NCBI RefSeq assembly: GCF_016653465.1
Contig: NZ_NHSQ01000045.1
Location: 1 to 49,659 of the forward strand
DNA length: 49,659 bases
Direction of reading: 5' to 3'
From: Thiocystis minor
GTDB taxonomy: Bacteria > Pseudomonadota > Gammaproteobacteria > Chromatiales > Chromatiaceae
Shown: positions 5,545 to 30,697 of the stretch, in pieces
How positions within the stretch are numbered: position 1 is the stretch's first letter
Layout: each line of letters begins with the position of its first letter
Made by a program: the position numbers and the translations under genes
Notes under the pieces: generated by a model
The model's database searches: none
Told to the model about the DNA's origin: nothing
What the model saw: only the letters and a program-made list of their open reading frames with translations

Positions 5545-6474
5545 TCAGACTCCCAACTCGGCCCGCGGGTTGAAGTTCAGACGCTCAGCCATGAGTCGAT
5601 ACGCCTCGCGCGCGGCCTCGGTGTTGGCTGGCGGTGCGACGATCTCCAGCACCACGATCGTGTCGCCGGGCGGCTTGCCGGGCAAACCGCGTCCTTTCAG
5701 ACGCAGCTTCTGTCCGCTCTGGGAGCCCGCCGGGATCTTCAGGCTCACCGAGCCGCCCAGGGTCGGCACGGTCACGGATGCACCCAGGGCCGCCTCCCAG
5801 GGGGCAATGGGCAGACGCAGCTGGATATCCTTGCCGTCCGGCGTGAAATGCCGATGGGGAGCGATCTCGATCTCCAGGTAGAGATCACCGGACGGGCCGC
5901 CATTCAGGCCGGCCGAACCCTGTCCCGCGAGCCGGATCTGCCGGCCCTGGGTGACGCCTTCCGGGATGCGGACGTTCAGGGTGCGCGAGCGCGTGCTCCG
6001 GCTGCCGTCCGCGGCGGTTTCCTGCGCGTCGAGCTTGATCTGACGGGTCGCGCCGCGATAGGCGTCCTCAAGATCGATCACGATTTTGATGCTCTGGTCC
6101 TGGCCGCGGCGGCGGCGGGTTTCCCGATGATCGGAACGGAAGGCGCGTCCGAAGACGCTGGCGAAGAAGTCGCTGAAGTCGGCGGTCTCGTTCGGATCGA
6201 AATGGAACTCCCGATTGCCGGCGCCGCCGGGCGGCGGACGGAAATCCTGCCCGGCGCGCCAGTTGCTGCCGAGCGCGTCGTAGGCGGCACGTTTCTCCGG
6301 ATCGTGCAGAACCTCGTTGGCCTCGTTGACCTCCTTGAAACGCGCCTCGGCGTTCGTTTCCTTGCTGACGTCCGGGTGAAACTTGCGCGCCAGCCGGCGA
6401 TAGGCGCGCTTGATCTCGTCTTGCGAGGCGTTGCGCGCCACGCCGAGGGTTTTGTAGTAGTCCTTGTATTGCAT
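5545..6474 (-). CDS. cbpA: DnaJ-class co-chaperone CbpA (curved DNA-binding protein)
   Basis: 309 residues. The J-domain (1-70: YKDYYKTLGVARNASQDEIK ... HPD in KFHPDVSKE) stimulates DnaK ATPase. A Gly/Phe-rich linker follows (about 75-125, with FRPPPGGAG), then two C-terminal substrate-binding beta domains (about 130-300). The DnaJ zinc-finger cysteines are absent, which separates CbpA from DnaJ. The linker carries ETADFSDFFASVFG. Together with cbpM just downstream it forms an operon. In E. coli CbpA is also a nucleoid protein of stationary phase. The region upstream (6475-6796) carries inverted TTAAACCGCG repeats, but no clear heat-shock promoter was found. Confidence 0.93.
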   Translation of the reverse strand: MQYKDYYKTLGVARNASQDEIKRAYRRLARKFHPDVSKETNAEARFKEVNEANEVLHDPEKRAAYDALGSNWRAGQDFRPPPGGAGNREFHFDPNETADFSDFFASVFGRAFRSDHRETRRRRGQDQSIKIVIDLEDAYRGATRQIKLDAQETAADGSRSTRSRTLNVRIPEGVTQGRQIRLAGQGSAGLNGGPSGDLYLEIEIAPHRHFTPDGKDIQLRLPIAPWEAALGASVTVPTLGGSVSLKIPAGSQSGQKLRLKGRGLPGKPPGDTIVVLEIVAPPANTEAAREAYRLMAERLNFNPRAELGV

Positions 6475-6605
6475 CGCAACGTCTCGGGAAAATGGGCGGA
6501 CAGATACTCGGAGAAACCCGAATCATCGCCGAGAATGGGGACGATGGGGAGCGATTGCATCTTTCCGCCGGGTCCAGGCTGCAATCGGATGACGCCCTGG
6601 ATGTC

Positions 6606-6800
6606 TCTAAACCGCGTCCGGTAAGGTATGCGTAGTTTTGAGTGGTCAGCCAAGTTGGCACCCATCTGCGATGTCGGCGTCGACGCGGTTTAACGATTTA
6701 ATTTTGAAACACTTTAAACCGCGCCAGCTCCGACGATCATAGAGGCTTCCGGGGTCGATTCAATCCATAAACATCGCATACCGCGCCGGGCGCGGTTTAA
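6606..6800. repeat. Four copies of a TTAAACCGCG-type repeat in two inverted pairs
   Basis: TAAACCGCGTC near 6608 is inverted to GACGCGGTTTAA near 6685. TTTAAACCGCGCC near 6712 is inverted to GGCGCGGTTTAA ending at 6800. The last copy overlaps the stop codon of the Ycf46-type gene, where the hairpin ACCGCGC-cgg-GCGCGGT could serve as a terminator. The same ten bases recur at the stop codon of the PAP2 gene (16857-16866). Confidence 0.6.
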
Positions 6801-8287
6801 TACCGCTCGGGACCATGCGCGGGCACGGTCCGCTCCCTGGCCCAGGTCCGCAGCGCCTGAATCTGGGTGTCCATGATGACCGACAGCGGCTGGGTGCTGG
6901 CCAGTTCGCCAAGCAGGGTCGCGGTCTCCAGCGTGCCATCGCGCGTCGTGTCCGCGTAGAGCGCGGAGACCACCGCCTGCTCGATGCCGGCGCCGGTGAA
7001 GCCCTCGCTCGCCTCGGCCAGGGCATGCAGGTCGAAGCGGTCGGGCTCCTGACCGCGCTGGCGCAGATGGATCGCGAAGATGTCGCGCCGAACCTCGGCG
7101 GTGGGCAGATCGACGAAGAAGAGTTCGTCGATGCGGCCCTTGCGGATGAGTTCGGGCGGCAACCGCGAGATGTCGTTGGCGGTGGCGACCAGAAACACCC
7201 GCGTGGCACGTTCCGCCATCCAGATCAGCAGCGTGCCGAGGATGCGCCGGCCCACTCCCTCGTCTTCCGAGCCGCTGGCGATGCCCTTTTCGATCTCGTC
7301 GATCCAGAGCACGCAGGGCGCCATGAGGTCGGCGGTGTCCAGCGCTCGGCGCAGATTCTTCTCGGTCTCGCCGATGTATTTGTCATAGAGCGCGCCGAAA
7401 TCGAGCCGCAGCAGCGGCACCCCGAAGCGTCCGGCGACGGCCTTGGCGGCGAGGCTCTTGCCGCCGCCCTGCACGCCCAGCAAGAGAATGCCGCGCGGAT
7501 GGTCGCGCTGGCGGGCGGGATCGAGGAAGGCGTCGCGGCGACGGTCGATCCACGCCTTGAGGTTGTCGAGGCCGGCGACCTCGGCGAAGGAACGGGTGTC
7601 ATGCTCGAAGCTGATGATCCCCTCGGGGCTGAGGAGTTCGTACTTGGCGCGCTTGACGGTCTGCACGTCATCCTGGGTGATGGCGCCGTCCTGGCGGATG
7701 GCGTTGCGGATGAGACGACGGGCATCGGATTCGGTGATGCCCAGCAGATTGTCGGTGAGCTGTTCGACGGCCTCGCGGCTGGCGCGTACCGGACGGTCCT
7801 GGACGGTCTCCTGCCAGCGCCTGGCCTCCTCGCGGATCAGCGTCTGGATGCGCTGACGATCGGGTAGCCGCAACGAAAAGCGCACGCTGAGATGACGCAG
7901 TTCAGGAGAAATCTCCAGTCCGTGGCTGACTAGGATGAGGGTGCGCGGCAGATTGGCGTAGCCCTGCGCGATTTCCTTCAACAGCCGGACGTGCAGGGGC
8001 TTGTCCAGATAGGGATGAAAATCGAGCAACAGATAGAGGCCGCGCTGATTGGTGAGCTTGATGTGACGCAGAGCCTCGCCGGGATTCGCGAGCGGCTGCT
8101 GGGCCGGGGCGTCGAACTCGATCCGCTGGAGTCCGTCGGTGACGGTCCAGCAGAACGCGGGCTCGGACAGGCGCATCGCCAGCCGGGCGAAGAGTTCGAT
8201 CACCCGCGGCTCCTCGATCGACTCGATCAGGACGATCGGCGTGTCGGAACGCAGCAGCAGTTCCAGGTCGTGAAGGTCCGGTGTCAT
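6797..8287 (-). CDS. Ycf46-like AAA+ ATPase
   Basis: 496-residue cytosolic AAA+ protein. The N-terminal half (1-215) is a degenerate ATPase-like domain typical of Ycf46 (IVLIESIEEPRVIELF, then YLLLDFHPYL). The C-terminal AAA module has Walker A GVQGGGKS, Walker B CVLWIDEIEKG, a sensor ATAND and the second-region-of-homology arginine in LIRKGRIDELFFVDLP. Ycf46 proteins are related to FtsH-type ATPases but lack the protease domain. In cyanobacteria they are linked to CO2 use, but a role here is not established. A strong AGGAGT ribosome-binding site precedes ATG 8287. It is divergent from leuA, with 258 bases between. Confidence 0.88.
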   Translation of the reverse strand: MTPDLHDLELLLRSDTPIVLIESIEEPRVIELFARLAMRLSEPAFCWTVTDGLQRIEFDAPAQQPLANPGEALRHIKLTNQRGLYLLLDFHPYLDKPLHVRLLKEIAQGYANLPRTLILVSHGLEISPELRHLSVRFSLRLPDRQRIQTLIREEARRWQETVQDRPVRASREAVEQLTDNLLGITESDARRLIRNAIRQDGAITQDDVQTVKRAKYELLSPEGIISFEHDTRSFAEVAGLDNLKAWIDRRRDAFLDPARQRDHPRGILLLGVQGGGKSLAAKAVAGRFGVPLLRLDFGALYDKYIGETEKNLRRALDTADLMAPCVLWIDEIEKGIASGSEDEGVGRRILGTLLIWMAERATRVFLVATANDISRLPPELIRKGRIDELFFVDLPTAEVRRDIFAIHLRQRGQEPDRFDLHALAEASEGFTGAGIEQAVVSALYADTTRDGTLETATLLGELASTQPLSVIMDTQIQALRTWARERTVPAHGPERY

Positions 8288-21983: not shown

Positions 21984-24245
21984 ATGCTGGAGTCGTTGCG
22001 GCGTATCGTTCAGGAGGTCAATAACGCCCAGGATCTGGAGCAGGCGCTGACGATCATCGTGCGTCGCGTCAAACAGGCGGTTGGCGCCGATGTCTGCTCC
22101 GTGTATCTCAACGATTTCGACAACCGCTGCCACATCCTGCACGCGACCGAGGGACTGAGCGGCAATGTTGTCGGGCGGGTGCGTCTGGAGCTTGGCCGCG
22201 GACTGATCGGCCTGGTTAGCGAGCGCGCCGAGCCGATCAATCTCGACGACGCGGCCACCCATCCGCGCTACGAACGAATCGTCGACATTGGCGAGGAGAG
22301 TTATCACGGGTTTCTGGGCGCGCCCATCATCCAGAATCGCAAAGTGCTTGGCGTGCTGGTGCTGCGCCAGCGTCAGCGTCGCCACTTCGAGGAGGACGAA
22401 GTCACCTTCGTCATGACCCTGGCGTCGCAACTCGCCGGGGCCATCACCTACGCCCGGACCAGCGGCGAACTGGTGCGTCTTCAGGACGACGGCATTCCGC
22501 AGCGTTTTTTGCCCGGACTGGCCGCCTCGCCGGGGATCGGGATCGGCCAGGCAGTCGTCGTCTACCCGCCGGCCGATCTGGATGCCGTCCCGGATCGCCG
22601 TCCCGACAGCCTGGACGTGGAGGAAGAGGATTTTCGGCGCGCGGTGCGCAATGTGGTCAATGACCTGGATCGCTTCGCGGCGCGAACCCAAAAGGTCTTG
22701 AGCACCGAGGACATGGCGCTGTTCGACGCCTGGCGCCTGATGCTCGAAAGCGACACCCTGATCGACGGCACCCTGTCGCGCATTCGCGCCGGCAACTGGG
22801 CGCCAGGGGCGCTGCGCGAGACGATCACCGAACACGCCAAGGTGTTCGACAACATGGACGACGCCTATCTGCGCGAGCGGGGTTCCGATGTCCGTGATCT
22901 TGGGCGCTGCGTGCTGATGCACCTCCAGAATCTGACCGCCGCGCCGATCCAGTACGCGCCCCAGACGATCCTGGTGGGCGAGGAGATCAGCGCGATGCAG
23001 ATCGCCGACGTGCCGCGCGAAAAGCTCGTCGGCATCGTCTCCACTACCGGCTCGGGGTCGTCCCATGTCGGTATTCTGGCGCGTGGCATGGGCGTGCCGG
23101 CGGCGATGGGTGTCGCGGATTTACCGGTCAGCCGGGCCGAGGGTCGGGAGATGGTGGTGGACGGGTATCGCGGGCGCGTTTATGTCGCCCCCGGTCCGGC
23201 CGTTCGTTCCGAATATCAGCGTCTCGCCGAAGACGACGCGGTGCTGACCAACGAACTCCAGACCCTGCGTCATCTGCCCGCCGAAACCACGGACGGTTAT
23301 CTGATGCCGCTGTATCTCAACACCGGGCTGGTCTCGGAGAACCGCCCGCTTGGGATCGAGGAATCCGCCGGGGTCGGTCTCTATCGCACCGAGCTTCCCT
23401 TTATCGTGCGCGACAGCTTTCCGGGCGAGGCCGCCCAGATGTCGAATTACCGGCATGTGCTGGAACTGTTCGCCCCGCGCCCCGTGACCATCCGCACGCT
23501 CGATATCGGCGGCGACAAACCGCTGCCGTATTTCCCGATGAACGAGGCCAACCCCTTTCTGGGCTGGCGCGGCATCCGCATCACGCTCGATCATCCCGAG
23601 ATTTTTCTGACCCAGGTGCGGGCCATCCTGCGCGCGGCCATCGGACTCGACAACCTGCAACTGCTACTGCCCATGATCAGCTCGGTCGGGGAGGTGGACG
23701 ACGCCCTGCTGCTGATCCATCGCGCCCATGCCGAACTGCTAGAGGAAGGCTATCAGGTCAAGATGCCCCCGGTCGGCGTCATGATCGAGGTTCCGGCCGC
23801 CGTCTATCAGTCCGAGGCACTGGCGCGGCGCGTCGATTTTCTCTCGGTCGGCACCAACGACCTGACCCAATACCTGCTCGCCGTCGACCGCAATAATCCG
23901 CATGTCGCCAAGCTCTACGACGAGTTTCATCCGGCGATCCTGCGCGCCCTGCTGCAGATCATCACCGGCGCACGAGTGCATGGCCGCGAGGTCAGCGTCT
24001 GCGGCGAGATGGCCGGCGATCCGCTCGCGACCTTTCTGTTGCTCGGCATGGGTGTGCACAGCCTGAGCATGGGCGCCGGCAGTCTGCTGCGGGTCAAGCG
24101 CGTCATCCGCAGCATCAGCCGGGCGCGGGCGCGCGAGGTGCTGAAGGTCGCGCTGCAATGCGAGGACTCCGGTTCGGTGCGCCGCCTGCTCCTCGATGCG
24201 CTGGAAGCGGTTGGATTGGGCGGGCTGGTGCGTCCTGGGAAATAA
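21984..24245 (+). CDS. ptsP: Phosphoenolpyruvate-protein phosphotransferase PtsP (EI-Ntr)
   Basis: 753 residues from ATG 21984; a longer frame to 21696 overlaps rppH. A GAF domain (about 15-160: VGADVCSVYL ... GLIGLVSERAEPINL) precedes enzyme I modules. These are the PEP-utilising N-domain (about 175-300), the swivelling phospho-histidine domain with TTGSGSSHVGILARGMGVPA (the H residue is phosphorylated), and the C-terminal PEP barrel with GLYRTELPFI, GGDKPLPY and the SVGTNDLTQYLLAVDRN/VCGEMAG motifs. It starts the nitrogen-linked PTS chain to NPr and EIIA-Ntr. Length fits E. coli PtsP. A hairpin at 24263-24290 ends the transcript. Confidence 0.95.
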   Translation: MLESLRRIVQEVNNAQDLEQALTIIVRRVKQAVGADVCSVYLNDFDNRCHILHATEGLSGNVVGRVRLELGRGLIGLVSERAEPINLDDAATHPRYERIVDIGEESYHGFLGAPIIQNRKVLGVLVLRQRQRRHFEEDEVTFVMTLASQLAGAITYARTSGELVRLQDDGIPQRFLPGLAASPGIGIGQAVVVYPPADLDAVPDRRPDSLDVEEEDFRRAVRNVVNDLDRFAARTQKVLSTEDMALFDAWRLMLESDTLIDGTLSRIRAGNWAPGALRETITEHAKVFDNMDDAYLRERGSDVRDLGRCVLMHLQNLTAAPIQYAPQTILVGEEISAMQIADVPREKLVGIVSTTGSGSSHVGILARGMGVPAAMGVADLPVSRAEGREMVVDGYRGRVYVAPGPAVRSEYQRLAEDDAVLTNELQTLRHLPAETTDGYLMPLYLNTGLVSENRPLGIEESAGVGLYRTELPFIVRDSFPGEAAQMSNYRHVLELFAPRPVTIRTLDIGGDKPLPYFPMNEANPFLGWRGIRITLDHPEIFLTQVRAILRAAIGLDNLQLLLPMISSVGEVDDALLLIHRAHAELLEEGYQVKMPPVGVMIEVPAAVYQSEALARRVDFLSVGTNDLTQYLLAVDRNNPHVAKLYDEFHPAILRALLQIITGARVHGREVSVCGEMAGDPLATFLLLGMGVHSLSMGAGSLLRVKRVIRSISRARAREVLKVALQCEDSGSVRRLLLDALEAVGLGGLVRPGK

Positions 24246-24262
24246 CTCGGCTTGACCGGCGT

Positions 24263-24290
24263 CTTGCCAGAGACACGGGCAAGGATTTTT
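24263..24290 (+). terminator. Intrinsic terminator after ptsP
   Basis: CTTGCC (24263-24268) pairs with GGCAAG (24278-24283) across a 9-base loop, followed by GA and five T. It is a modest stem with a clear T run, placed 18 bases past the ptsP stop. Confidence 0.65.
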
Positions 24291-24342
24291 CGTGTTGCTG
24301 TGTACGTACCTGCACTGATTTCACGACAAAACATCAACACTC

Positions 24343-24515
24343 TTCAGATCGGACGCTCTCTGGGCCGGCTGCTGGAGCTGGGCAGGCCGGTCGTGGTCGT
24401 CGCGCAAGGCGAACGCGCCTGGACCGGGGTGCGCGAACGGCGGCTGGCGTGGCGCATCGTCCCGGCGCGGATCGTCGCTCCCGCTGGAAGCACCGCCCAA
24501 CTCGCTGAGGGCTGA
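24343..24515 (+). pseudogene. 3' remnant of an RT-MutS-like gene (duplicate end of the gene at 27563-28774)
   Basis: The frame reads SLGRLLELGRPVVVVAQGE, then RAWTGVRERRLAWRIVPARI and a stop at 24513-24515. It matches the last 55 residues of the longer RT gene (SRLLALGRPVVVVAQGE, VRERRLVWRIVPARIVAP), with about 95 % identical bases by eye between 24351-24480 and 28618-28740. Homology stops abruptly near 24343, just after the ptsP terminator. So this is a truncated copy left by duplication and deletion. It directly precedes ATPase copy 1, just as the long copy precedes ATPase copy 2. Any product would start from a foreign codon and is unlikely to work. Confidence 0.85.
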
Positions 24516-24588
24516 GTCACCTGCTCGGCACGGTGCCTTGGGAGCGCCATGCGATGCTGAATCCGTCCCGCCAACCGCGAGGTGCCCG

Positions 24589-26163
24589 ATGCGCTTCTTC
24601 AATACCGAAGGTCCGAACCGGCCGGAGGATCACTACAGCCTGCCGCCGCTCTCGCGCTGGGATCTCGACGCGATCCTGACTCTGATCGACCAGAAAAAAT
24701 ACTTCCTGCTCCACGCCCCGCGTCAGACCGGCAAGACCACCTGTCTGCTGGCGCTGATGGCGCGGCTCAATCAAGAGGGGCGCTATCGGGCGGTCTATGC
24801 CAATCTGGAGACCGCGCAGACCACGCGCGAGGATGTCGCGCGTGGGATGCGGACCGTCTGCGGTGCCATCGCCGCCGCCGCCCGGCTCTATCTCGGCGAG
24901 GATCGGCTGCAGGACTGGGCCAAGGCGGCTTGGGAGGCACGCGGCGCCGATGGGATGCTGAACGGGCTGCTCGAAACCTGGAGCCTGAATAGCTCGACTC
25001 CCCTCGTCCTGCTGCTTGACGAAGTCGACGCCCTGATCGGCGATACCCTGATCTCGTTGTTGCGCCAGTTGCGCGCCGGCTACCCGCAGCGCCCGGGCGC
25101 CTTTCCGCAGACGGTCATCCTCTGCGGGGTACGCGATCTGCGCGACTATCGCATCCACGCCCGCTCCGAGTCCGCGCCCATCACCGGCGGCAGCGCCTTC
25201 AACATCAAGGCCAAATCCTTGCGCCTGGGCGACTTCGACGCCGACGAGGTGCGCACCCTGCTGCTGGAGCACACCCAGGAGACTGGACAGCCCTTCTCCC
25301 CCGAGGCGCTGGAGCGGGTCTGGACCCTGACCCAGGGCCAGCCGTGGCTGGTCAACGCGCTCGCCTATCGCGCCTGCTTCGAGTTACCTGAAGGCCGTGA
25401 CCGGCGCCAGCCGATCACACGCGACCTGATCGACCGGGCCAAGGAAGCGATGATCGTCGAGCGTGTCACCCATCTCGACCAGCTCGCCCACAAGCTCCAG
25501 GAACCGCGCGTGCGGCGCATCATCGAGCCGATGCTCGCGGGCTCGGCGCTGGGCGATGCCCCGGTCGAGGACATCGAATACCTGCTGGATCTGGGCCTGC
25601 TGCGCCAGAGCCGCGACGGCGGCCTAGTGGTCGCCAATCCCATCTACCGCGAAGTCCTGCCGCGCGCCCTGGCCTTCACGCCGCAGGCGTCCCTGCCACA
25701 GATCGCCCCGACCTGGCTCGCCGCCGATGGCGCGCTCGATCCCGCGCGACTGCTGGACGCTTTTCTCGCCTTCTGGCGCCAGCACGGCCAGCCGCTGCTC
25801 AAGAGCGCGCCCTACCACGAGATCGCTCCGCATCTGGTGCTGATGGCCTTCTTGCATCGCGTCACCAACGGGATCGGCACCCTGGAGCGCGAATACGCCA
25901 TTGGTGCCGGGCGCATGGATCTGTGTCTGCGCTATGGCGCGGTTACGCTCGCCATGGAGCTAAAGGTCTGGCGCGACGGGCGCCCCGATCCGCTTGCCGA
26001 GGGCTTGAGCCAGCTCGACGGCTATCTTGCCGGGTTGGGGCTGGACTCGGGCTGGTTGATCGTCTTCGACCGGCGCGCGGACCAACCGCCGATCGCCGAA
26101 CGCACCGCGAGCGCCGACCAGCGGAGTCCGGCGGGGCGGCGCATCACCCTGGTGCGGGCCTGA
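24589..26163 (+). CDS. AAA ATPase with C-terminal PD-(D/E)XK nuclease-like domain, copy 1
   Basis: 524 residues from ATG 24589 (GAGGTG ribosome-binding site). Walker A APRQTGKTT (about 44-51), Walker B LVLLLDEVDALI (139-150), a sensor-like CGVRDLRDY and a winged-helix-like middle (about 230-370) place it in the AAA_14/archaeal-ATPase group. The last 90 residues carry a PD-(D/E)XK-like set: D444 in GRMDLCL, E457-x-K459 in MELKVW, and Q in LSQLDGYLAGL. Such proteins are multicopy in several phototrophs, with roles unproven (defence or mobile element). The remnant of an RT C-terminus precedes it by 74 bases. Residues 74-137 differ strongly from copy 2 while the flanks are almost the same. Confidence 0.8.
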   Translation: MRFFNTEGPNRPEDHYSLPPLSRWDLDAILTLIDQKKYFLLHAPRQTGKTTCLLALMARLNQEGRYRAVYANLETAQTTREDVARGMRTVCGAIAAAARLYLGEDRLQDWAKAAWEARGADGMLNGLLETWSLNSSTPLVLLLDEVDALIGDTLISLLRQLRAGYPQRPGAFPQTVILCGVRDLRDYRIHARSESAPITGGSAFNIKAKSLRLGDFDADEVRTLLLEHTQETGQPFSPEALERVWTLTQGQPWLVNALAYRACFELPEGRDRRQPITRDLIDRAKEAMIVERVTHLDQLAHKLQEPRVRRIIEPMLAGSALGDAPVEDIEYLLDLGLLRQSRDGGLVVANPIYREVLPRALAFTPQASLPQIAPTWLAADGALDPARLLDAFLAFWRQHGQPLLKSAPYHEIAPHLVLMAFLHRVTNGIGTLEREYAIGAGRMDLCLRYGAVTLAMELKVWRDGRPDPLAEGLSQLDGYLAGLGLDSGWLIVFDRRADQPPIAERTASADQRSPAGRRITLVRA

Positions 26164-26171
26164 GGGGTATC

Positions 26172-27567
26172 CCCATAAGCGCCAACTTAACCGTACCGTT
26201 GACGTTCTTGTGAATTCATCATCTCAATGACCCTGGCCGGAAGGGTTTGCAAGGCGCGTCGACGCGGGCGCTCCTGGAGCACCTCCAGGCAGGCCTCCCA
26301 CTGCTCGGCTCGCCAGCGCTGGGCATCGAGAATCCAGCCTCGACCTGTTGGCGCACGATCATCAAGCGCCGCCAGGGCGTCAGCCGACGGGGTTGGTCCA
26401 GCGGGTCGAAGCCGCGCGTGGTGTGGCGTTGAGCGCGTCGTTCAACGACCAGTGCATCGAGTCATTTCCCTCGAATCCAGACCTCGCCCAACCGGCTGTT
26501 CTGCTGGGTGCGCAAGGCGTCGAGGTCAAGCAGCGATTTGAGCCGCTTGAACGCCAGTTCCACTTGCCAGCGCAGCGGTACAACGCTAACACGGTGGGGC
26601 CATCCAAGGTCTCGGGCGCCACGGTGGTGAAGACCATGACCCCGCCGGCGAGAAACCGGGTGGCCTCACTCGGGGTTCGCCCCTTGCGCTGGGCCGCTTG
26701 CCGGCAACGCCGGCGGGCGGCTTCCGCCGCCGTGGGCGGGAGACGCACGGCGTGTAGCCAACCCGGTCCGCTCGCCTCCGGCGCGCGCCGCCACCCCGGG
26801 AGACGGATCGTGTCGTCCGTGCCGGCGCGCCGCGACGCCGCGACAGCCCACCGCACCGCCGCCGGATCGCACACCTCCGCCTCCCCTGGGCGGACAAACC
26901 AGGGCATCGCCGTGGGGTTCAAGCGCACGATCACCCCCACACCACGCGCGAACCGATCGAGAATCACCCGTGGCTGATGGTAACCTCGGTCCACGAGCAC
27001 GATATCTCCTGCCTGCCACGGGTCACGGGCCAGGGTGTCCCCGCCATCCACGCCGGTCACGTCCACGGCGTGCACGGTCAGGTGGGTTCAATCCAGCGCC
27101 AAATGCACCCGATCGTCCGTTCCCTCGGCGCCCGGTCCTTGCCGTGACGAGCCATCGACGATCAGCAACCGCCAGGCTGTCAACGGGGTCTGCGTGGCGG
27201 GTAACCTCGTGTGTAGCAACGCTTTCAGCCAGGGGCCGCAGGCCCGCAACCGCTGGTGGATCGCGGTCTCCGTGATCCGCTCCTCTCACCGCGTGAAGCG
27301 ACCGGCGGTGGTTCGCAGAGCCTGATCCAATCCACAATACAGCATGACCACCTGCAGTCGTTGCGCGGGCGTCTTGAGCTTGCGCGGGCGGGCGAACGCC
27401 TTGAACTCATACGCCATCTCGGCGTACTCCGGTGGCAAGTCTTTCAGAAAGTCTTCAAACGCAAGATCGACGGGATTGGGTTCGTGGGACATGGCGGCAA
27501 CATGCCCAACAATTCGCGGCTCTCCACGGATATTCAAGGGCTTGACGGCTATGTTGGCGCTTATGGG
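26172..27567 (-). mobile_element. IS4-family insertion sequence, 1396 bp, perfect 15-bp inverted ends
   Basis: CCCATAAGCGCCAAC at 26172-26186 is the exact reverse complement of 27553-27567, giving perfect terminal repeats. Inside is one decayed IS4-type transposase on the minus strand. The 11 bases outside each end (TGAGGGGTATC and CGTGCATCTGG) do not match, so no target-site duplication is visible. That suggests the flanks were joined by recombination or deletion between IS copies. The right end falls inside the RT gene. Confidence 0.9.
26187..27492 (-). pseudogene. Decayed IS4-family transposase
   Basis: From ATG 27492 the frame reads MSHEPNPVDLAFEDFLKDLP, PPEYAEMAYEFKAFARPRKL and QVVMLYCGLDQALRTTAGRF. 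TGA follows at the position encoding R-F-T-R-stop, then EERITETAIHQRLRACGPWL continues. A second TGA interrupts VHLALD-stop-THLTVHAV. A one-base loss near 26577 shifts the frame within VLALYR; the true continuation LRWQVELAFKRLKSLLDLDA is in the next frame. A third TGA follows WIRGK. The end MIVRQQVEAG ... RVIEMMNSQERQRYG and TAA at 26187 is typical of the family. So there are three nonsense changes plus a frameshift, and the element cannot move on its own. Confidence 0.88.
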
Positions 27568-28774
27568 CGTGCATCTGGCGGTCGATCGGCTGCAGGGCTT
27601 CATGCGCCAGGTGACGGCCAATGGCCAGCGCCGCGCCTGGTACCTGCAACTCGACATCCGCAACTATTTCATGAGCATCGACAAGGCGTTGCTGTGGCGT
27701 CTGCTGGAGCCGCGCATCGACGATCCGGACGCGCGCTGGCTGACCGAACTGCTGGTGTTTCATGATTGCACCCAGGACTACGTTTACAAAGGCCGGCCCG
27801 GCGAGCTGGAGCGGGTGCCGCCGCATAAGACCCTGCTGCGCGCCGAGCCGGGCAAGGGACTGCCGATCGGCAATCTCAACTCGCAGTTTTTCGCCAACGT
27901 TTACCTGAACGGGCTCGACCAGTTCGTCAAGCACGAACTCAAGTGCCCGCACTATCTGCGCTACTGCGACGACTTCGTGCTGCTGTCGCCCGATCCCGAT
28001 CAGCTCTCCGAGTGGCGCGAGCGGATCCGGGAGTATCTGTGGACCGAGCGTCTGCTGCGCCTGAATCCCACGCGCGAGCGGCTGCGGCCTCTGAGCGATG
28101 GGGTGGATTTTCTCGGCTATATCGTGCGGCGCGAGTATCGGCTGGTGCGCCGCCGGGTGGTCAACGCGCTGAAGGCGCGGCTGCGTGACGCTCGGGAGCG
28201 GTTGGTGAGCGTGCGTGAGGGCGTCGCCTGGTATCGCTTCGACGCGCCCGAACTGGAGCGGTTGCGGGCGGTCCTGGCGTCGTATCTGGGGCATTTCCAG
28301 GCCGCGAATACGTGGCGGCTCTGGCGCGGAATCCGGGCGGCGCATCCCTGGCTGGACGTCTATTTCGAATGGGACGAGGCGGCGCGCAAGCTGCAGCCGC
28401 GCGACGCCATGCCCAAGGCACTGACGCGGGCCTGTCAGCAATATGCCTGGGCGCGGGGACGCTTTCCGGGCGACGCCCTGTTGTTTCAGGTCGGCGCCTT
28501 CTACGAGGTCTATGATCGGCGCGATGCCGTGCTGGCGCGCGACCTGGGCCTGCGAGCGCTGCGCGAAAATCCGCGCCATGCCCTCTATGGCTTCCCCGAA
28601 CGGCTGTTCGGACGTTATCTGAGCCGACTGCTGGCGCTGGGCAGGCCGGTCGTGGTCGTCGCGCAAGGCGAACACGCCTGGACCGGGGTGCGCGAACGGC
28701 GGCTGGTGTGGCGCATCGTCCCGGCGCGGATCGTCGCTCCCGATCGATTCATCGCCCGGCTTGATGGGGACTGA
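27563..28774 (+). pseudogene. DGR-like reverse transcriptase with C-terminal MutS-I-like domain, N-terminus lost to IS
   Basis: After the IS end the frame reads VHLAVDRLQGFMRQVTANGQ, then palm motif A (AWYLQLDIRNYFMSIDKALL), motif B GLPIGNLNSQFFANVYLNGL and motif C YLRYCDDFVLLSP (YxDD). Motif E follows with DGVDFLGYIV. G-x-x-x-S-Q in motif B is the signature of diversity-generating retroelement RTs. The last 110 residues contain LLFQVGAFYEVYDRRDAVLA and YGFPERLFGRYLSRLLALG, which match MutS domain I (F-x-x-G-x-F-Y-E; the mismatch-sensing F-Y-E is kept). The fingers segment before motif A is missing; an in-frame ATG inside the IS end (27563) would start it. ATPase copy 2 follows 73 bases downstream. 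Confidence 0.8.
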
Positions 28775-28846
28775 GTCGCCTGCTCGGCGCGGGCCTTGAA
28801 AGCACCGTGCTATGCTGACACGGTGCCGCCATCCGCGAGGTGTCCG

Positions 28847-30421
28847 ATGCGCTTCTTCAATACCGAAGGTCCGAACCGACTCCAGGATCACTACAGCCTG
28901 CCGCCGCTGTTGCGCTGGGATCTGGAGGAGATCCTGGCCCTGATCGATCAGAAGAAATACTTTCTGCTCCACGCCCCGCGCCAGACCGGCAAGACGACTT
29001 GCCTGCTGGCGCTGATGGCGCGGCTCAACCGAGAGGGGCGCTATCGGGCGGTCTATGCCAATCTGGAAGTGGCGCAGCCCTATCGCGAGCAGGTGGACAA
29101 GGCTATGCGGGCGGTGGTGGAGCAAATCTCGCGTGGCGCCCGCGATCAGCTCAATGACCAGGGCGCGGCGGACTTGGGTCGGGAGATCGTCCAGACCTCG
29201 GGCGGTGGCACGGCCGTGAACGAGTTTCTCACCTGCTGGTGTGCCAGCTCGAACCAGCCGCTGGTTCTGCTGCTCGACGAAGTCGACGCCCTGATCGGCG
29301 ATACCCTGATCTCGCTGCTGCGCCAACTGCGCGCCGGCTACCCGCAGCGCCCGGGCGCCTTTCCGCAGACCGTCATCCTTTGCGGCGTGCGCGATCTGCG
29401 CGACTACCGCATCCACGCCAGTTCCGAGCGCGAACCCATCACCGGCGGCAGCGCCTTCAACATCAAGGCCAAGTCACTGCGTCTGGGCGACTTCAACACC
29501 GACGAGGTGCGCACCCTGCTGCTGGAGCACACGGCCGAGACCGGCCAGCCCTTCACCCCCGAGGCGCTTGCTCGGGTCTGGGAACTGACTCAGGGCCAGC
29601 CCTGGTTGGTCAACGCGCTGGCCTATCGCGCCTGCTTCGAGCGGCGCGAGGGCCGCGACCGCACCCAGCCGATCACCCTGGCACTGATCGACCGTGCCAA
29701 GGAAGACATGATCCTCGAGCGCGTTACCCATCTCGACCAACTGGCTCACAAGCTCCAGGAACCCCGGGTACGGCGGGTGATCGAGCCGATGCTCGCCGGG
29801 ACGAACCTCGGCGAGGTGCCCGAGGACGACATCCAGTATCTGCTCGACCTGGGCCTCTGCCGTCAGATCCCCGGTCACGGCCTGACCATCGCCAATCCCA
29901 TCTATCGTGAGGTGCTGCCGCGTGCGCTGGCCTTCACGCCGCAAGCCGCGCTGCCCTCGATCAGCCCCAGTTGGCTTGCTCCGGACGGATCGCTTGATTC
30001 CGAGCGGCTGCTCGACGCCTTCCTCGCCTTCTGGCGCCAGCACGGCCAGCCCCTGCTCAAGAGCGCGCCCTATCACGAGATCGCCCCGCACCTGGTGCTG
30101 ATGGCCTTCTTGCATCGCGTCACCAACGGGATCGGCACCCTGGAGCGCGAATACGCCATCGGCGCCGGGCGCATGGATCTCTGTCTGCGCTATGGGGCGG
30201 TCACGCTCGCCATGGAGCTGAAGGTCTGGCGCGACGGTGCCCCCGACCCGCTCGCCGAGGGCTTGAGCCAGCTCGACGGCTATCTCGCCGGGTTGGGGCT
30301 GGACTCCGGCTGGCTGATCGTCTTCGATCGCCGCGCGGGCCAGCCGCCAATTGCCGAACGCACCGCCAGCGCTGTCCAGCACAGCCCGGCGGGGCGGCGC
30401 ATTACCCTGGTGCGGGCCTGA
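28847..30421 (+). CDS. AAA ATPase with C-terminal PD-(D/E)XK nuclease-like domain, copy 2
   Basis: 524 residues, exactly as long as copy 1; start ATG 28847 with a GAGGTG ribosome-binding site at the same distance. Walker A APRQTGKTT, Walker B LVLLLDEVDALI and the nuclease-like D/E-x-K set (GRMDLCL, MELKVW) are conserved. Residues 74-137 (EVAQPYREQVDKAMRAVVEQ and onwards) are largely different from copy 1, whereas residues 139-230 and 375-524 are nearly identical. It lies 73 bases after the RT gene, so it would be co-transcribed with it. It may act with the RT in a mobile or defence system, but no function is shown. It is convergent with nothing; purL follows after 276 bases. Confidence 0.8.
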   Translation: MRFFNTEGPNRLQDHYSLPPLLRWDLEEILALIDQKKYFLLHAPRQTGKTTCLLALMARLNREGRYRAVYANLEVAQPYREQVDKAMRAVVEQISRGARDQLNDQGAADLGREIVQTSGGGTAVNEFLTCWCASSNQPLVLLLDEVDALIGDTLISLLRQLRAGYPQRPGAFPQTVILCGVRDLRDYRIHASSEREPITGGSAFNIKAKSLRLGDFNTDEVRTLLLEHTAETGQPFTPEALARVWELTQGQPWLVNALAYRACFERREGRDRTQPITLALIDRAKEDMILERVTHLDQLAHKLQEPRVRRVIEPMLAGTNLGEVPEDDIQYLLDLGLCRQIPGHGLTIANPIYREVLPRALAFTPQAALPSISPSWLAPDGSLDSERLLDAFLAFWRQHGQPLLKSAPYHEIAPHLVLMAFLHRVTNGIGTLEREYAIGAGRMDLCLRYGAVTLAMELKVWRDGAPDPLAEGLSQLDGYLAGLGLDSGWLIVFDRRAGQPPIAERTASAVQHSPAGRRITLVRA

Positions 30422-30697
30422 GAGCGTCCCGATGCGCGACGTGCGGCCCGCGAGGGCGAGCCGTGAAATATTCAGCATGGTAGACGGCATGCACACCCTG
30501 TCCTGCACCCTTGCGTGATGCCGACCCTTGGCGCACGCCCAAAAAATTCCGAACTCGGCGCTTGCCCTTCCGGCTGAGAGTCTTTCCCGATACTCGCCTT
30601 ATTTTTCTCGATCGCGGCGCTTTCTTCGTTTCATCCCCCAACCGGCGCCGGCTCAAGTATCATTCGGAGATCCCCCAAGCACTCAGAGTCATCGCCG

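Follow-up and report, generated by a model that had tools for sequence, protein, structure and literature searches.

The window analysed here is a 49,659-nucleotide stretch of Thiocystis minor (contig NZ_NHSQ01000045.1), which holds at 24343-30421 a truncated gene for a reverse transcriptase (RT) resembling those of diversity-generating retroelements (DGRs), fused to a C-terminal MutS domain I, as well as two AAA ATPase genes and a segment resembling an insertion sequence (IS). The open reading frame (ORF) of the RT, 27344-28774 (+), encodes 476 residues and matches the Pfam families RVT_1 (E 6.2e-10) and MutS_I (E 5.6e-9); only these two lie above the Pfam cut-off in the ORF, and MutS domains II-V, with the ATPase, were not found in it. 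Based on Pfam, genome comparison and the RT tree, the truncated RT with its MutS domain I was assigned to 27566-28774 (+). It comprises the sequence IGNLNSQ (27866-27886, +), an instance of the (I/V/L)GxxxSQ motif as defined for DGR RTs in the available part of PMC3521204, and a YCDD box (27962-27973, +). The MutS domain I (28406-28732, +) is supported by Pfam PF01624, AlphaFold2 (AF2) and Foldseek and contains the residues FYE (28499-28507, +). An earlier reading of the sequence, here called the original prediction, had described a broken RT with G-x-x-x-S-Q and Y-C-D-D, followed by a MutS domain I with F-Y-E and lacking a template or variable repeat, and all of these elements were confirmed.

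The break lies at the N-terminal side of the RT and is abutted by the IS-like segment. As the RVT_1 match begins only at profile position 60 (60-204 of 205), the RT domain is incomplete N-terminally. The first ~78 codons of ORF 27344-28774 do not encode RT sequence and show 67-80% identity to six other sites in the same genome; the 476-residue ORF was therefore rejected as a whole RT, its start being antisense IS sequence. Homology to RTs sets in at 27566, with the residue equivalent to Gly81 of the intact Thiohalocapsa marina RT, which leaves the window RT ~80 N-terminal residues short of that enzyme. Within the window, the best match to RT residues 1-85 has E 0.29 and is not convincing; across the assembled genome, part of them is matched only by a distant RT on contig C109. 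No Avd was found in the window, no template repeat (TR), Avd or target was found beside the RT, and a scan of the window and 19 other stretches of the 5.3-Mb genome (166,021 bases, overlaps counted) returned no pair of TR and variable repeat (VR). Lacking both its N-terminus and an adjoining TR, Avd or target, the window copy should not work; going by the assembly, it is dead. Nor was a live copy found elsewhere in the genome with the intact T. marina RT as query, which matched the window RT, its tail copy, the distant RT on C109 and two weak sites (E 0.01 and 0.04). RTs of other classes exist in this genome.

The RT lineage and its intact relatives

A FastTree tree of 78 RTs places the window RT together with those of Thiohalocapsa and Thiorhodococcus (support 0.68), and this group falls inside a clade with the RTs of BPP-1, ANMV-1 and BalMu-1 (0.92), apart from the retron-like and group II RTs. 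The retron-like references score below the retron family cut-off, named UG/Abi RTs were left out, and four of the distant loci L114-L124 were included while L112 was omitted. A profile of 44 related RTs, compared with the PDB, matched the BPP-1 bRT with 219.9 bits, followed by LtrA with 79.8 bits. The AF2 model of the T. marina RT (predicted local distance difference test (pLDDT) 85.6, predicted template modeling score (pTM) 0.77) yielded DGR RT chains in the top five Foldseek rows. The predicted DGR-like affiliation is thus borne out by tree, profile and fold, as well as by the TR/VR pairs of the relatives.

These relatives comprise 56 loci in named genomes, namely 12 distant RTs (L114-L125) and the 44 loci L070-L113. 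In intact members, an Avd-like gene and a TR come before the RT, and the VR in the target gene departs from the TR almost exclusively at adenines of the latter. Of 43 related loci, 38 have an Avd-like ORF. A TR/VR pair with at least 75% of its mismatches at TR adenines was found in 31 of the 44 loci L070-L113. In 19 of these 31 the TR ends 0-44 bases short of the assigned RT start, in 8 it overlaps this start and in 4 it lies 60-1030 bases off. T. marina has its TR at 736-859 and its VR at 5582-5705, 14 of their 16 differences facing an adenine of the TR; the uncultured Thiocystis genome G004 has two VRs, each of which differs from the TR at 20 positions, 18 of them adenines. The lineage thereby resembles a BPP-1-type DGR in its RT clade and (I/V/L)GxxxSQ motif and, in the relatives, in the TR by the RT start, the Avd-like gene, the adenine-specific VR changes and a target with an Lcl_C domain. 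It differs by the MutS domain I on the RT and by the PEP-CTERM-type tail that follows the VR in part of the relatives' targets, and the window copy additionally lacks TR, Avd, target and RT N-terminus. T. marina (L039) has two copies of a 2389-base block of avd, TR and RT (1-2389 and 5891-8279), 100% identical and offset by 5890 bases, which would be either a recent duplication or an assembly effect.

Because the same fused RT sits in true DGRs of the relatives, we read the window RT as a DGR enzyme to which a mismatch-recognition domain has been fused. Elements of this kind mutate a surface protein of their host. As a whole, the window feature is interpreted as a DGR remnant whose RT carries a fused MutS domain I and whose neighbouring ATPase is unrelated, with a probability of roughly 0.9. 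Several observations on the RT and its relatives pull the other way. With the window ORF as query, models of other RT classes rank first in general libraries, none of them coming near its cut-off where one exists: the group II model scores 61.7 bits against a cut-off of 300, and PADLOC RT and UG models are likewise ahead. Among the 30 relatives that bear the aromatic-x-Glu (F-x-E) motif of the MutS domain discussed below, 21 have a TR/VR pair and nine have none (L074, L076, L080, L082, L085, L090, L092, L093 and L098). L074, the near relative from Thiorhodococcus, is a broken copy as well: its MutS_I part contains a stop, and no Avd was found. In support of the DGR reading, pooling the best pairs of the 21 F-x-E loci gives 368 of 390 mismatches at a TR adenine, against 123.1 expected from base content, a share that the 75% filter inflates. 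As background, a filter of 75% A or T lets through 28 of the 72 repeat pairs between 50 and 400 bases long that the same loci hold.

Ten targets were scanned, out of the 13 F-x-E loci with a VR 81-112 bases before the ORF end and of the 21 F-x-E loci with a pair. All ten match Lcl_C, nine of them above the cut-off. In nine targets (L070, L072, L073, L077, L079, L081, L083, L084 and L087), a PEP-CTERM, IPTL-CTERM or VPLPA-CTERM signal follows the VR, scoring above the curated cut-off; the VR is not at the protein end in those targets because this exosortase-type sorting signal comes after it. In L089, L091, L094, L100, L102 and L108, the VR lies at the very end. Among the papers searched, none joins 'diversity-generating retroelement' and 'PEP-CTERM', and one pairs 'diversity-generating' with 'exosortase'. 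The window's genome has six Lcl_C genes, several of which end like DGR targets; one VR-like Lcl_C end, used as query, matched itself and gave three weak matches and no TR. On another stretch of this genome (L064, 1492-3108, -), a collagen-like protein ends in Lcl_C with a VR-like end and is, by its sequence, a possible orphan DGR target.

Beyond named cellular genomes, the T. marina RT matched 136 of 50,697 phage records and 190 of 72,556 plasmid records, and no phage or plasmid match covers 80% of the fused RT-MutS_I protein. From IMG/VR, the best 80 of 410 relatives were taken; for most viral contigs, the extent of the match was the sole criterion, if any was applied. The viral locus L187 was matched up to residue 458, and its extracted 416-residue frame is without MutS_I by the hidden Markov model (HMM) built here.

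The fused MutS domain I

In the window ORF, MutS_I (PF01624) covers residues 363-459 and scores 36.6 bits, above the gathering threshold of 20.6. Predicted alone, the domain reaches a pLDDT of 90.8 in AF2, and each of the 50 rows that Foldseek lists is a chain of the MutS family. When the MutS_I profile is aligned to Thermus (Taq) MutS, F-Y-E falls in register, so Pfam, profile alignment and fold agree on the identity of the domain. The aromatic-x-Glu of MutS contacts the mispair. Compared with MutS of Taq and E. coli, the RT-borne domain shares the domain I fold and the position of F-x-E, whereas connector, clamp and ATPase domains are lacking.

Pfam MutS_I was found in 25 of the 44 related RTs at E 0.01. 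The aromatic-x-Glu ([FYW]-x-E) is kept in 31 of the 38 RTs with letters at the site, a count that rests on alignment A3, which omits L114-L125 and the broken L113 and in which L111 is gapped at one of three motif columns. Motif conservation in two further alignments is biased by omitted rows: A4 omits L095, L096, L099, L101, L103-L107 and L109-L112 (13 of 44), and A6 omits L093 too. By entropy, the Glu column ranks sixth of 100. At L099 (263-1516), the RT frame has an end unlike the MutS_I of its relatives; one A3 RT, possibly that of L099, matches CbbQ_C.

The known DGR accessory MSL is the closest comparison. In the available part of PMC10053308, HRDC and MSL are known DGR accessories, MSL being PF01624.22, and domains fused to DGR RTs are mentioned as a class. 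The original prediction noted that MutS-like partners have been reported for some DGRs. The window lineage shares with MSL the presence of a MutS domain I within a DGR and differs in that the domain is fused to the RT rather than encoded by a separate gene. Moreover, the fused domain mostly has F-x-E, whereas four stand-alone MutS_I ORFs beside target or Avd genes read FLQ (L091), FMQ (L096) and FMK (L112) at this site or have a deletion there (L104). By sequence, fused and stand-alone forms so differ at the putative mismatch-reading Glu, in only four stand-alone cases. One of these DGRs, L091, has both a stand-alone MutS_I ORF (7064-7429, FLQ) and an RT-fused MutS_I (FFE). The word 'MutS' is absent from the main texts of PMC8144416, PMC10907252, PMC8934634, PMC4244168, PMC6642488 and PMC8867640. 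Among the matches listed in our literature search there was no paper on an RT-MutS_I fusion, which is thus new as far as that search goes, its reach excluding the original MSL paper. MSL was reportedly described by Wu et al. 2018.

To our knowledge, it is still open how DGR cDNA replaces the target and how its mismatches escape repair. In intact members, error-prone cDNA copied from the TR would pair with the VR and form a mismatched heteroduplex, with 12-24 mispairs spread over 68-143 bases, mostly 120-143, to be expected in the 21 F-x-E loci. The tethered MutS_I, with its aromatic-x-Glu and without clamp and ATPase domains, could bind these mispairs, and the bound domain might keep the complex of RT and cDNA at the target while homing proceeds, mask the changes from host MutS, or both. 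That the fused domain acts as such a mismatch reader has, in our judgement, about an even chance.

Several observations count against this role. Seven RTs without F-x-E form one clade (0.98), which includes the RT of the same-genus genome G004. A-biased TR/VR pairs nevertheless persist in all seven motif-less loci, with only a short one in L105, so F-x-E is not needed everywhere; because this clade keeps such pairs, a mismatch-reader role would be helpful rather than essential, or would have been replaced. Five viral RTs from IMG/VR (L154, L156, L159, L164 and L170; 373-378 residues) branch near the cellular fused RTs and show no MutS_I by our own HMM. Finally, in the part of PMC12875486 available, a reconstituted DGR shows no effect of mutS on an 18-nt insertion, and mutS was deleted in that study to preserve substitutions; the insertion assay has no bearing on substitutions.

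The motif losses are also what one would expect if MutS_I served as a general docking surface for nucleic acid or protein, such as the TR RNA scaffold or Avd, and did not read mismatches: the DGR pattern stays while the motif goes, Gly389, Arg457 and Gln371 are conserved more strongly than the motif Glu, and the stand-alone MSL ORFs have F-x-Q/K in three cases and no motif in the fourth. The retention of aromatic-x-Glu in 31 of 38 RTs, from records titled as several phyla, speaks against it, and we consider such a docking role rather unlikely, if a serious competitor of the mismatch reader. Improbable in our view is a third role, in which MutS_I would read mispairs in the RT's own RNA:cDNA product and tune adenine misincorporation rather than homing. 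That MutS_I comes directly after the RT thumb in the sequence of the AF2-modelled RT would suit this idea; the share of adenines is, however, alike in the 21 F-x-E loci (368/390) and in 10 others (169/177), both sets being 75%-filtered.

Returning to the mismatch reader, a broader and more tentative proposal, which we hold to be possible and somewhat doubtful, is that the mismatch-reading domain of MutS, with Phe-x-Glu, was captured on the error-prone RT of a DGR lineage that is widespread and mainly cellular, so that one enzyme would both produce the mismatches and recognise them on the target. The domain would then be a device that hides hypermutation from host repair or steers it around repair, serving in part of the lineage to vary exosortase-sorted (PEP-CTERM type) surface lectins. 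The window feature itself is an ordinary wreck; the lineage behind it merits specialist attention. An RT of this kind that brings along a mismatch-recognition domain, known from records titled as several phyla and with a motif-less clade as natural control, would make the replacement of the target and the escape from repair testable with and without mutS, and the domain, if it works, would also hint at tools for mutating selected sites.

The ATPase copies and the rearranged locus

Copy 1 of the AAA ATPase lies at 24589-26163 (+; ORF from 24538, likely ATG 24589) and copy 2 at 28847-30421 (+; ORF from 28796, likely ATG 28847), and AAA_35 and AAA_22 match both above the Pfam cut-off. The likely ATG of copy 2 is 72 bases past the RT stop, which retains the predicted downstream ATPase and corrects its spacing from 73 bases. 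In 25 aligned copies, R442, D444 and K459 are invariant and E457 nearly so, and this pattern of conserved R, D, E and K suggests a PD-(D/E)XK end; the Pfam match of that end to PDDEXK_9 is weak (E 0.25, 11.8 bits against a cut-off of 25.5).

The original prediction had joined RT, mismatch sensor and ATPase/nuclease into one module. In that account, RT, MutS_I and ATPase would form a single functional, perhaps defensive, unit that was duplicated as such, and both repeats in the window do keep the order of RT tail and ATPase at 86-89% identity. The three relatives from Chromatiaceae whose RT matches are strongest (E <1e-80; G004, G044 and G075) all have ATPase matches somewhere in their genomes, a point that also counts against our view of the ATPase as unrelated. 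Those in G044 are fragments only, and the overlap at the genome level may be explained by shared ancestry, which confounds it. One betaproteobacterial contig (L086) has RT and ATPase ~5 kb apart. The expected co-occurrence in other genomes was nevertheless rare: the ATPase is present in one of 56 stretches around related RTs (up to 10 kb each side) and in six of 38 genomes carrying related RTs, a count that omits L070, L074 and L106 (G044, G075 and G004, respectively), all three with ATPase matches. Conversely, no RT was found in 30 ATPase stretches from 29 places elsewhere, most with only ~1.5 kb of flank, and two of the four near-full-length ATPase copies in the window's genome have no RT nearby. 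The module was therefore rejected, conserved linkage being absent and G004 having RT tail and ATPase on separate contigs, and we rate it as very improbable. Matches to the ATPase at E 1e-20 occur in 27 of 141 genomes (the window's included), often as several or tandem copies; the ATPase belongs to a dispersed repeat family and is probably not a partner of the RT.

The predicted duplication fared better. A copy of approximately the last 52 RT codons (the MutS_I end, without RT body) lies at 24348-24503 (+), directly 3' of a ptsP-like gene, with 79% protein identity to the RT (tblastn) and E 1.4e-6 with the MutS_I HMM built here, among whose sequences is the window RT. RT tail and ATPase thus form direct repeats in the same order, with a spacing of 4258-4259 bases. 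The duplicated pair stands in this sense. Overall the two ATPases share 82% protein identity, and because residues 81-120 reach only 28% (46% at the nucleotide level), the copies appear as mosaics.

A same-genus genome has the same RT-tail relic 3' of ptsP, with 95.9% identity over 24100-24467, and since the relic is common to both genomes at this level, it probably predates their split. That genome, G004, has the relic after ptsP on contig C448, and on contig C99 purL is preceded by an ATPase that is ~63 residues short at its N-terminus; the ~2 kb between this ATPase and the contig end hold no RT. As the window joins the ptsP side (C448) and the purL side (C99) of G004, 24467-30625 lies at a synteny break. 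In place of the RT N-terminus lies the IS-like segment, ~26164-27567 (ends approximate, no strand assigned), which is repeated in the genome and has 85% identity over 1409 bases to another copy. It contains a transposase-like frame at 26380-27075 (-) with a weak IS4-family match (22 bits against a cut-off of 115). Taken by sequence, the RT-tail-ATPase repeat looks like the product of rearrangement among repeats. In the family alignment of the ATPase, a highly variable block (columns ~77-135) is bordered by conserved flanks, and elsewhere the window copies are mostly 80-100% identical; the block shows a pattern as if it had been swapped between paralogues.

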